Origin: an uncultured Flavobacteriales bacterium | Lineage (GTDB): Bacteria; Bacteroidota; Bacteroidia; Flavobacteriales_E; Vicingaceae | Reading direction: 5' to 3' | Assembly (NCBI GenBank): GCA_913056345.1 | Contig: CAJXMH010000011.1 | Span: forward strand, 1-64,000 | DNA: 64,000 nt | Shown: in pieces, positions 53,028 to 58,628 of the stretch | How positions within the stretch are numbered: position 1 is the first letter of the stretch | How the letters are laid out: every line of letters starts with the position of its first letter | Translations under genes and position numbers: made by a program | Notes under the pieces: generated by a model | Seen by the model: the letters and a program-made list of their open reading frames with translations, nothing else | Databases searched by the model: none | Told to the model about the DNA's origin: nothing

Positions 53028-55571
53028 ATGATTTCATTTCTAAAAACATTTAAAAAGCATAGTTCGCTCTTTATATTATTTTCTTGCTTAAGCTTTTCTG
53101 CTACAGCACAATTGAATTATTATTTATATGACTCTTTAAAAGTCTTCAGAGATGGTAATGAATTGAACCAACCCTTCTGGGGTGGTTTTAATGCTCCTCA
53201 ATTCGGACAAATAGACCTGAACCTTGATGGCAAAAAAGACTTAATCGTTTTTGATCGTGTTGGTGAAAAACTGCTAACGCTCATTAACCAGGGGGGCATG
53301 GGTGAAGTTAATTATCGTTTTGAGCCTGAATACATAAAATACTTCCCAACTATAAAGTATCAAATGTATACCAAAGACTATGACTGCGATGGAGACAATG
53401 ACCTCTTCGTTGGTGGTTCTGATCTAAGGTTATTTCAAAATAATAGCTCAATGCTTGATGGAATCCTATTGTCGGATTCAGGAAAAGTGAACTCTTTGTA
53501 CAATCCGGATCAAGCTAATCAAATCCCCTCTTCCATTAACCCTAGTCAACCAAACTTAATTGGACTTGGAGATGTTGACGGTGACGGAGATCTTGATATT
53601 ATCAATGAGTTTGGTCTAGGTAACCAGCTAGAATATCATCGAAACCTATCGATAGAACGCAATGGTGAGTGTGGTTTAATTTTTGAAAGAAGAGCAAAAT
53701 GCTGGGGTAATTTCATGGAGTCTAGTCTTAGCTCTGAGATTTTCTTAGATACCTGCAGATGGACTGAATTTGGAAGTGGCGGAGAATTCACAAAGAGAGA
53801 TGAGAACCATATCACAGAGGGGCAAAAAGGATTGAAACATGGAAATTCTGCCATTGCTATTTTCGATCTAGACTATAATGGTAGTGCAGACGTTTTACTC
53901 GGAGATGACGGCACCAGAAGAGTTACCGCTCTTTATAATGCTGACAGTGGCAGTATCCCAAGAGTAGATTCAAGGATTTTCAGAGTAGACAGCACCTTCC
54001 CAAGTTTTGACCAACCTATTGACTTACCTATTTTTCCTGCTTCATATTTCTTAGACCTTGACAATGATGGTTTTGACGATATGTTGGTTGCCCCAAACAC
54101 CAATGATTTCCTTAGCCCTGGCAAGAACAAGAACAACATCCTTTTTTACAAAGGAAATGGAACAGCCAATGGTTTCACTTTAACCAATAAGGCTCTTTTC
54201 TTTAAAGATATACTTGATTTTGGCGAAGGCAGCTATCCTACTTTTTTTGACTTCAATAAAGATGGCAAGCAAGATCTACTGATTGGTAATTTGGGCTATT
54301 ACAACGATTCATCTAAAAGAGATGTGGGACAATTGGCTCTCATGATCAATACAGGAACTACCCAAAAACCTGAATTTGACCTGATTGACACTAATTTTCT
54401 AAACTTACCCCAATATTTGTTGCTTGATACCAACCGACTTCCTGAATATAATTTGATCCCGGCGTCAGGTGACTTGGATGGAGACGGAGATGAGGATCTT
54501 TTAATAGGCGTATCAAGTGGTAAGATTCTTCATTTTGAAGATACAGCAAATCAAGGGCAAGCAGCTGAATACAAATACAAGGGTGATTACTTCCAGAAAA
54601 TAAGAGTATTCAACAATGCCAAGCCTGATCTTTTTGATGTAAATGAGGATGGACTACTTGACTTGGTGATTGGAAGTGAAGTTGGCAGCCTTAGCCTATA
54701 TCTAAATCTTGGTAGTGCGCAAAATCCAATTTTTACAATGAAAGTTGATTCGATTGTTTATCAAGCTGCTACAAACACACAACGCTATCAACTTGAAGAT
54801 GATGTAAACCTGAGTTTTTTCGATATTGGACAAACAATAAGGGTAAAAGGCTCATCCAAATTAGATAATAATGTGCAATACGATATTGTAGCAATAAATG
54901 ATAATTTAAACTACCTAGATCTAAGGCCTAGTTTCTTCAATACCAATAGCAGTAACGATGAGTCGAATTCTAGGGCTGTAGTTGATGCTGCAATTTTAAA
55001 TTGGGGGAAATTTTCATTGATCGATATCGAATCAAATTATGACAGTGCTCCATTCTTATTTAAGAATAGAAATGGTGAAAATCGATTGATCGTTGGAAGC
55101 AGAGATGGCAATATTTTCCTGCTTGACAGCATAAAAGGAAACCCGCTTGATTCATTTATAATAATTGATAATAGATACATTCAACAGAATCTAGGAGGGA
55201 ATACTGTTGTAGCAGGAACAGATTTAAATGGCGATAACTTGATTGACTTTGCGGTTGGAAATAAAGCGGGAGGATTATCCATATTTTTTGGATTGAATAA
55301 TGTTGGTATTGACGAGAAAAAAGTTAAGGCAAATCGAAAGGACTTCTTACTTATTCCAAATCCTGCAAAGCGTTTTGCAATTATAAAGCTTGCTGAAACT
55401 TTTCAAAGTACAGTACAAGAAATTGAGATCAGAGATAGTGCAGGTCGGCTCATTGAAAGGTTGGCAGCAGATAACAGAAAAATTGATCTCACTAATTATA
55501 GGAAAGGAATATACATTGTAAATATCATCAGCGATGATAAGCTTTCTAGTGAATTGCTGATCGTGCAATAA
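53028..55571 (+). CDS. FG-GAP/VCBS repeat protein with type A T9SS sorting domain
   Basis: An 847-residue exported protein. Signal peptide (HSSLFILFSCLSFSATA, ends about residue 27), then many FG-GAP/VCBS-like repeats with calcium-loop motifs: DLNLDGKKDLIVFD, DVDGDGDLDIINEFG, DFNKDGKQDLLIGN, DLDGDGDEDLLIGV, DVNEDGLLDLVIGS, DLNGDNLIDFAVGN. These form a beta-propeller. The last ~75 residues (LLIPNPAKRFAIIK; IRDSAGRLIERLA; YRKGIYIVNI) are a type A T9SS sorting domain. It is probably secreted to or through the surface; function not known. It converges on mdh at a shared terminator. Confidence 0.88.
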   Translation: MISFLKTFKKHSSLFILFSCLSFSATAQLNYYLYDSLKVFRDGNELNQPFWGGFNAPQFGQIDLNLDGKKDLIVFDRVGEKLLTLINQGGMGEVNYRFEPEYIKYFPTIKYQMYTKDYDCDGDNDLFVGGSDLRLFQNNSSMLDGILLSDSGKVNSLYNPDQANQIPSSINPSQPNLIGLGDVDGDGDLDIINEFGLGNQLEYHRNLSIERNGECGLIFERRAKCWGNFMESSLSSEIFLDTCRWTEFGSGGEFTKRDENHITEGQKGLKHGNSAIAIFDLDYNGSADVLLGDDGTRRVTALYNADSGSIPRVDSRIFRVDSTFPSFDQPIDLPIFPASYFLDLDNDGFDDMLVAPNTNDFLSPGKNKNNILFYKGNGTANGFTLTNKALFFKDILDFGEGSYPTFFDFNKDGKQDLLIGNLGYYNDSSKRDVGQLALMINTGTTQKPEFDLIDTNFLNLPQYLLLDTNRLPEYNLIPASGDLDGDGDEDLLIGVSSGKILHFEDTANQGQAAEYKYKGDYFQKIRVFNNAKPDLFDVNEDGLLDLVIGSEVGSLSLYLNLGSAQNPIFTMKVDSIVYQAATNTQRYQLEDDVNLSFFDIGQTIRVKGSSKLDNNVQYDIVAINDNLNYLDLRPSFFNTNSSNDESNSRAVVDAAILNWGKFSLIDIESNYDSAPFLFKNRNGENRLIVGSRDGNIFLLDSIKGNPLDSFIIIDNRYIQQNLGGNTVVAGTDLNGDNLIDFAVGNKAGGLSIFFGLNNVGIDEKKVKANRKDFLLIPNPAKRFAIIKLAETFQSTVQEIEIRDSAGRLIERLAADNRKIDLTNYRKGIYIVNIISDDKLSSELLIVQ

Positions 55572-56641: not shown

Positions 56642-56675
56642 TTTGGTTAACCAAGGCAACCTTTAGCTAAATTCG
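56642..56675 (+). promoter_or_regulatory. Predicted sigma-factor promoter with overlapping palindrome
   Basis: TTTG (56642-56645), 22 bases, then TAAATTCG (56668-56675), one base from TAnnTTTG. The -33 element is inside a perfect 12-base palindrome TTGGTTAACCAA (56643-56654), a possible operator. Confidence 0.4.
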
Positions 56676-56697
56676 CGTCTAACTGAGGAAAGTCTTA

Positions 56698-57267
56698 ATG
56701 GATTTATCGAATAAAGAGCTAGTAGAAAAGTTGGTAAAAGCTTGCAGCAGAAGAGATCGTTCTGCTCAGCAGCAGCTTTATCAAAAGCTTTACAGCCCCA
56801 TGATGGGAGTCTGTTATCGATACGCTCGGAATCAAGAAGAGGCGAAAGACCTACTTCAAGATGGATTCATCAAGATTTTTGATAAAATTGATCGATTCAA
56901 TTTTAAAGGTTCTTTAGAAGGCTGGGTCAGAAGGATAATGGTAAACCACGCTATAGATCACTATAGAAAAAACAAGAATAAGTTTTCGATGAGTGAAACA
57001 TTAGTGGAGGCTGAAAACATACCAGCTGATGAAGAGGGTGAAAACTGGGCTAAACAGGTACAAGCTAAAACGCTGCTTGCCTTCGTTCAGCAATTAAGTC
57101 CCGTTTATCGTACGGTCTTTAACCTTTATGTGTTAGATGATTATTCGCACGCTGAGATTGCCGACGAATTAGGGATAAGCGAAGGAACATCCAAATCTAA
57201 TTTAGCGAAGGCCAAGCAGAATTTAAGGAACATGATTTTAGAATATAAAAGAAATGAAGAAAAATAA
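56698..57267 (+). CDS. ECF-type RNA polymerase sigma factor
   Basis: A 189-residue sigma-70 family factor with only regions 2 and 4. Region 2 spans about 20-90 (YQKLYSPMMGVCYRYARNQEE; AKDLLQDGFIKIFDKIDRF; GWVRRIMVNHAIDHYRKN) and region 4 about 125-180 (LSPVYRTVFNLYVLDDYSHA; EIADELGISEGTSKSNLAKA). It directs RNA polymerase to a special set of promoters. Its stop overlaps the next gene by 14 bases, so that product is the likely partner (anti-sigma). An AGGAAAG-like sequence lies 7 bases before the ATG. Confidence 0.92.
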   Translation: MDLSNKELVEKLVKACSRRDRSAQQQLYQKLYSPMMGVCYRYARNQEEAKDLLQDGFIKIFDKIDRFNFKGSLEGWVRRIMVNHAIDHYRKNKNKFSMSETLVEAENIPADEEGENWAKQVQAKTLLAFVQQLSPVYRTVFNLYVLDDYSHAEIADELGISEGTSKSNLAKAKQNLRNMILEYKRNEEK

Positions 57268-58555
57268 GTTAACGCAAGAAGAGGAGGCACTTAGGGCCAA
57301 GATCGAGGAGATCGAGTTTGATTATCAAGTTAGCGATTGGAAATCTCTTGAACAAAAACTTCCCACTAATCAAACCCTTCAGCTTGCCAAGTGGCTTGCT
57401 GCATCAACAGCTGTTATTCTTTTAAGTACTGCAGTTTATTTTCTTTCAAAGGACTCTTCTGTTCCTGCAGCTAAAGGAGAAAAACTAAAAAAGGAATTAA
57501 GCACCGCAAAAGTTGATCAGTCGATTGATGGTAAGAAAAATATTGAGATAGGTAGTGAAAAAGTAAAAAGTGAAGCAGAAACCAAGTTAAATGCTAAAGA
57601 AGAAAAAAGCATAAAGCAAACACCTACTCAAACCAAAACTTCCAAGAAGGAAAACAAGTTAACAAACAGTTCGACTGAAAGCGAAAAATCTAATTCATAT
57701 GAGCAAGCAGCAGATGAGCATGCCCAAACTGAAAAAGAGAATAAAGAGCCAATTGAAGAATCGGTTGACCTTAAAGCACTAAAAGAATCGGTTTATTTTA
57801 AGATCATTGGCAAGGCCTGTGTTGGAGAAAGTATAAAATTGATTGCAGAAGCTAATGCAGTGCCAAGGTCAAACCTTATCTGGAAATACGGAAGTAATAA
57901 AATGAATGGACGGGAGATTGATTTGAAACTCCACTCAGAGAAACCAACTTTAATAAGCTTGTTTTACCAGAACGAAAACGGTGAATTAAGCAAATTAAAA
58001 GACACCCTGATCTCTCCGAATACTCCTCCCAAAAGTGATTTCTTCTTTACGGAACATGATGGTATATTTAATGACTTCCAAGTAACCTTTACTGTAGAAG
58101 AACTTCAACCTTCGGAAACTTATAAGTGGCTTCTTAATGACAAAATTATCGGCTCTAAAAGCGAAGATGTCTATGATTTTAATCAAGCAGGAAATTATAA
58201 AGTAACCTTATTTGTGAGCGGTAAAGATGGATGCGAAGCTAATCTAACAAAAACTGTTCATGTTAAAGATGATCATTCGCTTTTTATCAATGCATTCACT
58301 CCCAACGGAGATGGTTACCTTGATACCTTTATGCCACAAGGCTTTGAAGATTTTGACGGCAACTTTAGTTTCAAAGTTTATAATCTGCAGAACAATTTAC
58401 TTTACGAAACCCAGAGTCCAGTTGAAGGTTGGAACGGTAGAATCAAAAACTCAGGACCAATGCAAGATTTAGGTTTATATGTTTGGGAAATAAAAGTTTC
58501 TGACAATAAAGGAAATTACAGAGCGTTTAAGGATAAAGTAAAAATTATAAAGTAG
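57254..58555 (+). CDS. Membrane-anchored anti-sigma-like protein ending in a type B T9SS (CHU_C) domain
   Basis: A 433-residue protein. Residues 1-45 are charged and cytoplasmic (KLTQEEEALRAKIEEIEFDY), 46-64 form one transmembrane helix (KWLAASTAVILLSTAVYFLS), 70-178 are a Lys/Glu-rich disordered linker, about 180-255 a beta-sandwich-like section, about 255-340 a PKD-like domain (SETYKWLLNDKIIG; DFNQAGNYKVTLFV), and 342-433 a gliding-motility-associated C-terminal domain (INAFTPNGDGYLDTFMP; FKVYNLQNNLLYE; GWNGR; GLYVWEIKVSDNKG), the type B T9SS sorting signal. The start overlaps the sigma gene by 14 bases. The short cytoplasmic part could hold the sigma factor, but it lacks a recognisable zinc anti-sigma motif. 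There is no cleavable signal peptide, so this T9SS-type domain would remain tethered in the periplasm. Confidence 0.85.
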   Translation: MKKNKLTQEEEALRAKIEEIEFDYQVSDWKSLEQKLPTNQTLQLAKWLAASTAVILLSTAVYFLSKDSSVPAAKGEKLKKELSTAKVDQSIDGKKNIEIGSEKVKSEAETKLNAKEEKSIKQTPTQTKTSKKENKLTNSSTESEKSNSYEQAADEHAQTEKENKEPIEESVDLKALKESVYFKIIGKACVGESIKLIAEANAVPRSNLIWKYGSNKMNGREIDLKLHSEKPTLISLFYQNENGELSKLKDTLISPNTPPKSDFFFTEHDGIFNDFQVTFTVEELQPSETYKWLLNDKIIGSKSEDVYDFNQAGNYKVTLFVSGKDGCEANLTKTVHVKDDHSLFINAFTPNGDGYLDTFMPQGFEDFDGNFSFKVYNLQNNLLYETQSPVEGWNGRIKNSGPMQDLGLYVWEIKVSDNKGNYRAFKDKVKIIK

Positions 58556-58598: not shown

Positions 58599-58628
58599 AA
58601 AAGGGGTCTGCAAAAACAGACCCCTTTT
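58599..58628. terminator. Bidirectional terminator between convergent genes
   Basis: A 12-bp stem (AAAAGGGGTCTG and CAGACCCCTTTT) with loop CAAAAA; A and T runs on both sides serve the anti-sigma-like gene and gyrB. Confidence 0.9.

Follow-up and report, generated by a model that had tools for sequence, protein, structure and literature searches.

A probable sigma/anti-sigma gene pair and its relatives

The stretch of DNA analysed here (hereafter the window), 64,000 nucleotides from a contig of an uncultured Flavobacteriales bacterium with a genome of 2.9 Mb, carries between the genes for malate dehydrogenase and gyrB an ECF sigma factor gene followed by a gene for a predicted membrane-tethered anti-sigma factor, which ends in a CHU_C domain, the sorting domain of type B cargo of the type IX secretion system (T9SS). 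The features of the locus are given below by position in the window and strand.

56655-56679, + strand: ECF-type promoter-like motif GGCAACC-N14-CGTC, a predicted autoregulatory promoter, 18 bp 5' of the sigma start codon
56698-57267, + strand: ECF sigma factor, 189 aa (TIGR02937 107 bits; Sigma70_r2 62 bits; Sigma70_r4_2 58 bits)
57254-58555, + strand: predicted membrane-tethered anti-sigma factor with C-terminal CHU_C, 433 aa (ORF, Pfam, AlphaFold2, gene context in relatives)
57254-57373, + strand: cytoplasmic head, residues 1-40, the predicted (putatively binding) sigma-binding module, with the invariant Trp29 at 57338-57340
57374-57445, + strand: single transmembrane helix, residues 41-64 (AlphaFold2; N-in by the positive-inside rule)
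57446-57757, + strand: K/E/S-rich disordered linker, residues 65-168 (pLDDT <50 in AlphaFold2; composition)
57794-58012, + strand: first Ig/PKD-like domain, residues 181-253 (AlphaFold2 beta-sandwich, pLDDT ~88-95)
58022-58273, + strand: PKD domain, residues 257-340 (Pfam PKD_4; structure comparison with PKD1 domains, Z 9.9 at 2.2 A)
58274-58552, + strand: CHU_C / T9SS type B C-terminal domain, residues 341-433 (Pfam CHU_C; AlphaFold2)
58385-58390, + strand: site of the lost cargo Arg-Trp (NRWG), here Leu378-Gln379 (comparison with cargo CHU_C)
58599-58628, no strand: terminator-like hairpin, bidirectional, separating the operon from the convergent gyrB (consensus match only)

Sigma70 regions 2 and 4 and the ECF family model all score above their cut-offs in the first protein, whose orthologues show 40-67% identity, and the end of its reading frame shares 14 bp with the start of the partner gene, exactly as described in the earlier note on this DNA. 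No porP/sprF gene lies next to the pair, all 12 PorP_SprF matches of the genome being located off its contig (C11); the genome also has 17 CHU_C matches above the cut-off. Near the pair, past the malate dehydrogenase gene, positions 53028-55571 encode a protein with FG-GAP repeats and a T9SS tail of type A (Por_Secre_tail).

The second protein has, by prediction, the layout of an anti-sigma factor, with a short cytoplasmic head, one membrane helix and a periplasmic sensor, and the AlphaFold2 model bears out the head, helix and long linker of the earlier note. The model, obtained with 29 relatives, places head helices at residues 8-19 and 26-34 and beta-sandwiches from residue 181 onward; a linker of about 100 residues could, if extended, span the periplasm. 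The PKD-like domain that had been read from the sequence is present (Pfam PKD_4 at residues 275-337, 28.7 bits against a cut-off of 27) but is not single, as there are two Ig/PKD-like domains. Among the 107 CHU_C-bearing relatives, an excess of Lys and Arg is found before the membrane helix in 68 and after it in 16. The window protein lacks the cleavable N-terminal signal peptide of type B cargo, helix 41-64 being situated behind a charged head of 40 aa. The ZAS-type zinc motif HxxxCxxC is absent from the head, residues 1-64 having no Cys, and the protein does not belong to the FecR type, giving no FecR match and having malate dehydrogenase and gyrB rather than a TonB-dependent receptor as its neighbours. 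No useful relatives of solved structure were retrieved by sequence search. A Trp ahead of the membrane helix is present in all 107 CHU_C-bearing relatives and invariant in the 74 aligned members. The Trp motif constitutes a unit of 34 aa, which occurs in tandem in one family (f12, 3-5 copies detected), and such repetition would suit a role of the unit as a sigma-binding module.

A first scan of genome contigs with the anti-sigma protein as query returned no relatives. A search of 60 related genomes yielded 34 full-length relatives including that of the window (32 from the same family and two from outside it), the others being approximately 20-30% identical to the window protein. All 34 have a co-oriented sigma gene directly upstream, with gaps ranging from -26 to +75 bp, and the arrangement of the pair is thus not due to chance. 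In an even sample of 247 genomes of the class, the full-length protein is present in at least 44 genomes and 13 families. When named genomes were scanned with an alignment of the sigma factors, 80 loci were obtained, including those of Brumimicrobium, Fluviicola, Cryomorpha and many uncultured Flavobacteriales; Brumimicrobium oceani C305, B. aurantiacum N62 and Cryomorpha ignava are cultured isolates that possess the pair. When the loci were pooled, a clade-specific model detected CHU_C in 107 of the 121 distinct proteins adjacent to the sigma factor; the generic Pfam model detects it in 29/29 close members and 41/74 named members, the domain having drifted beyond generic recognition in Crocinitomicaceae and others. 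The earlier note had staked its reading on the orthologues mostly retaining both the sigma gene and the CHU_C domain, and the reading survived this search. SprA, and hence the T9SS, is present in 239 of the 247 genomes, so that co-occurrence of the pair with the T9SS has no power as a test. Records named Glaciecola, Kuenenia and Polynucleobacter also carry this locus of Bacteroidota type (L283 = CP034120.1, L278 and L317), and their names look taxonomically wrong.

A shared promoter-like motif and the predicted regulon

The sigma genes share a 5' motif, GGCAACC-N13..15-CGTC, which matches the window once against 0.08 expected. Its shorter form, GCAACC-N13..15-CGTC, is located 5' of 52 of the 105 distinct sigma loci against 0.02 expected from shuffles. 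Across 20 genomes there are 67 occurrences of the motif, including the 15 sigma promoters themselves, against 53 of the reversed control; raw genome-wide enrichment, being barely higher than the control, was therefore discarded as evidence, and position relative to genes alone is informative. Of the 52 non-self matches 40 were examined, those left out having mostly 13-nt spacers. For 31 of the 40, an ORF of 150 aa or longer starts 12-65 nt 3' of the motif (10% for random positions; 31/52 if the 12 left out are counted as misses), and 29 of these 31 ORFs appear to bear a signal peptide (0.25% for random positions). Twenty downstream genes, picked for a long downstream ORF, were read, with a Pfam check on four; their tails include 16 canonical CHU_C domains, three of type A, with one of these genes extending past the end of the stretch examined, and one that is interrupted.

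A matrix trained on other genomes, when applied to the window's own genome, gives 27.7 both for the sigma operon and for a single gene encoding a CHU_C cargo protein of 1640 aa (contig C32), and 9.1 for the next of 63 genes. With this cargo gene as the only strongly predicted target, the regulon of this genome looks small, and the promoters of its CHU_C genes taken as a group show no significant enrichment (P = 0.06). A class-wide pattern combining the motif with a start codon gave 28 matches against 6 in the control, yet was set aside as it is also found in genomes without a CHU_C anti-sigma factor.

The window's genome carries the motif with a 16-nt spacer at C9:16731-16756 (L090), 28 nt before a gene for a 491-aa histidine-kinase-like protein. 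In ten loci (L263, L268, L285, L286, L291, L295, L301, L312, L316 and L319) the sigma/anti-sigma pair has a large CHU_C protein directly after it, a possible regulator-cargo operon. Numerous CHU_C proteins, each some 350 aa long and in part encoded in tandem, are found in one genome (G010; contigs C3, C5, C6, C28 and C31).

The CHU_C domain and the PorP/SprF architectures

The C-terminal domain of the window protein matches Pfam CHU_C at residues 345-419 with 37.6 bits against a cut-off of 27, as expected of the type B cargo domain, and falls slightly short of the NCBI model for T9SS type B sorting domains (TIGR04131, 32.7 against 35). The last 90 residues are modelled with a pLDDT of 78-97, and the domain ends within five residues of the C-terminus in 107/107 CHU_C-bearing relatives. 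The complete CHU_C domain of the earlier note thus stands as a complete fold at the extreme C-terminus, without the cargo Arg-Trp. In comparison with 29 cargo CHU_C domains, in which the NRWG site has Arg at a frequency of 0.90 and Trp at 0.86, the commonest residues of the anti-sigma clade at the two positions are Lys (0.26) and Ser (0.31). The remaining conserved cargo residues are largely retained in the clade, namely Phe348, Pro350, Asp353, Asn356, Trp393, Gly395, Gly401, Tyr409 and Gly427 in the numbering of the window protein, which itself departs from the clade with Leu356 and Asp427, and an FxPxAL motif and Trp411 have been gained relative to cargo. A single clade for all anti-sigma CHU_C domains was not upheld, 42 of 45 falling on one branch and three long-branch rows elsewhere in an alignment of few columns. 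In Flavobacterium johnsoniae, secretion of an SprB-tail reporter depends on five conserved type B motifs, mutation of each one being enough to block it (PMC12618676). With the Arg-Trp of NRWG lost, the anti-sigma CHU_C may no longer be recognised; a frame retained without its core cargo motif would fit a tag that is held and not exported, i.e. a tethered decoy.

The scaffold is also found in association with PorP/SprF. In four families (f19, f21, f37 and f44; 12 loci) a short anti-sigma gene lacking CHU_C and a PorP/SprF gene come, in this order, after the best sigma match, and the motif lies 50-72 bp before the PorP/SprF gene in 10 of the 12 loci. In the family with tandem Trp units, the anti-sigma protein combines, in 8/8 genomes (L228, L232, L381-L386), several such units with a membrane helix and with a PorP_SprF barrel, which scores 46-85 bits against a cut-off of 22.3 in 7/7 intact copies, and a CHU_C lipoprotein (25.8-37.7 bits, cut-off 27) is encoded separately by the next gene. 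The barrel is modelled with 14 strands at low confidence (mean pLDDT 51); FadL is among its fold matches, as are 8gl6_F and 6h3i_F, two chains of the T9SS translocon taken here to be PorV. PorP/SprF proteins bind type B C-terminal domains directly (PMC9143113). That the anti-sigma scaffold is joined to either half of a known binding pair, CHU_C or PorP/SprF, is the strongest single argument for a role in type B secretion. The sensor reading of the earlier note, in which the sorting domain would monitor the T9SS or its shuttle, is partly supported: a role in type B secretion is favoured by the motif occurring before CHU_C cargo genes and before PorP/SprF genes and by the barrel replacing CHU_C in one family.

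A second, separate pair of a sigma gene and a CHU_C anti-sigma gene is present in the same genome (contig C3, L043:2953-4525) and in eight relatives. Its anti-sigma protein has 335 aa and no PKD domain, the three rows of its CHU_C for which a place was obtained lie on a separate branch, and its own promoter, ATGCAACC...CATCT (TGCAAC...CATC), differs from the motif of the first pair; the search for its targets used spacers of 13-15 nt, the spacers of its own promoters being about 16.

These data bear on two other readings of the ectodomain. The pair may regulate T9SS cargo with CHU_C reduced to a mere Ig-like module for some other ligand of the envelope or surface, off the secretion system; the loss of Arg-Trp, the drift of CHU_C past Pfam recognition in many relatives and the families with short anti-sigma proteins lacking CHU_C would agree with this. 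It is nevertheless considered unlikely, given the position of CHU_C at the extreme C-terminus in 107/107, the retention of Phe348, Pro350, Trp393 and Gly395 (and of Gly427 in most), the existence of the separate second pair and, in the barrel family, an ectodomain that is the known partner of CHU_C and is encoded beside a CHU_C lipoprotein. Alternatively, the ectodomain may be cleaved off the membrane helix and exported by the T9SS, its departure triggering a proteolysis that frees the sigma factor, in the manner of FlgM. All parts of a type B cargo tail do follow the linker, which, being disordered, is a plausible cleavage site, but an AxA signal-peptidase motif at the membrane helix is missing in 106/107 relatives by a simple motif test and the loss of Arg-Trp speaks against export, which together leave this course improbable.

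A predicted secretion-coupled switch and its known counterparts

It is considered rather probable that the tethered protein links an anti-sigma function to type B export by the following mechanism. The cytoplasmic Trp-motif head would anchor the sigma factor to the inner membrane, and the long flexible linker would hold out to the outer membrane the two Ig domains and CHU_C, the latter mimicking an export tag of type B. A free shuttle of the PorP/SprF type, or the translocon with its shuttle, would engage the tag, and since the tethered tag would be unable to leave, its engagement would release the sigma factor by pull or by triggered proteolysis. The freed sigma factor would transcribe its own operon and T9SS cargo genes, mostly CHU_C-tagged, and in relatives appears to drive the shuttle gene as well. 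That the downstream protein is instead a membrane co-activator of the sigma factor is highly improbable, since the genes overlap in the usual order of sigma followed by anti-sigma and tandem Trp units suit sequestration, even though FecR-type regulators can both inhibit and activate.

Within the proposed anti-sigma mechanism, autoregulation, the cargo targets and the genetic link to shuttles are supported by sequence and by comparison of genomes; the binding of the sigma factor, the contact of tag and shuttle, the release step and the sign of the signal are proposed by analogy only. A free shuttle as the "on" state is tentatively favoured because the inferred targets here are cargo. In F. johnsoniae, overproduced type B tails are limited in their secretion by the supply of shuttles (PMC12618676), so that such a sensor would have something to sense. 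In its fullest form, the proposal is of a one-protein secretion-status sensor, in which cargo and a non-exportable type B decoy, tethered to the inner membrane, would vie for PorP/SprF shuttles, so that cargo transcription would be coupled to free export capacity, another family having equipped the same scaffold with the shuttle barrel; the chances of this being correct are about even.

To our knowledge, there is no known answer to how Bacteroidota match the production of very large type B adhesins to limited shuttles. The conserved operon, the inferred motif, the predicted targets and the two interchangeable sensor parts (tag or shuttle) make this question directly testable. If true, the proposal would bring the type IX system into the range of secretion-coupled transcription and tie many unannotated anti-sigma genes and CHU_C proteins into one circuit.

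A general parallel is with regulators such as FlgM-FliA, in which transcription tracks the state of a secretion machine. FlgM of the flagellar system is a soluble secreted protein, whereas the anti-sigma factor described here is membrane-bound and carries the export tag of another system. In Porphyromonas gingivalis, the T9SS C-terminal-domain protein PorA likewise feeds, by way of PorXY, an ECF sigma factor tied to the T9SS, SigP (PMC7712824). However, PorA is a secreted surface protein with a two-component system between it and the sigma factor, whereas in the present pair it is the anti-sigma factor itself that bears the tethered tag, and the predicted targets are cargo. The parallel is one of function only.

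Type B cargo and its PorP/SprF shuttles (SprB-SprF, PG1035-PorP; PMC9143113, PMC12618676) share with the present system the CHU_C domain and, in the sister operons, the PorP/SprF family. Unlike such cargo, the anti-sigma factor lacks a cleavable signal peptide, an adjacent shuttle gene and the Arg-Trp of NRWG and has a sigma gene in its operon; some type B cargo are themselves orphans without an adjacent porP/sprF (PMC12618676). In Flavobacterium psychrophilum, an ECF sigma factor with SM6 promoters has gldN and porU among these promoters (PMC9723704), and it resembles the present pair as an autoregulated ECF/anti-sigma pair with T9SS genes among its promoters; the T9SS targets listed for it are machinery genes, unlike the cargo targets predicted here, and no statement that its anti-sigma factor carries CHU_C was found in PMC9723704. 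ECF control of T9SS genes is therefore already known, from SigP in P. gingivalis and SM6 in F. psychrophilum. No description of an anti-sigma factor with a T9SS sorting domain was found in the open-access literature, and what is new here is an ECF/anti-sigma switch with this unusual sensor part, together with the auto-promoter-like motif GGCAACC-N13..15-CGTC common to its sigma genes.
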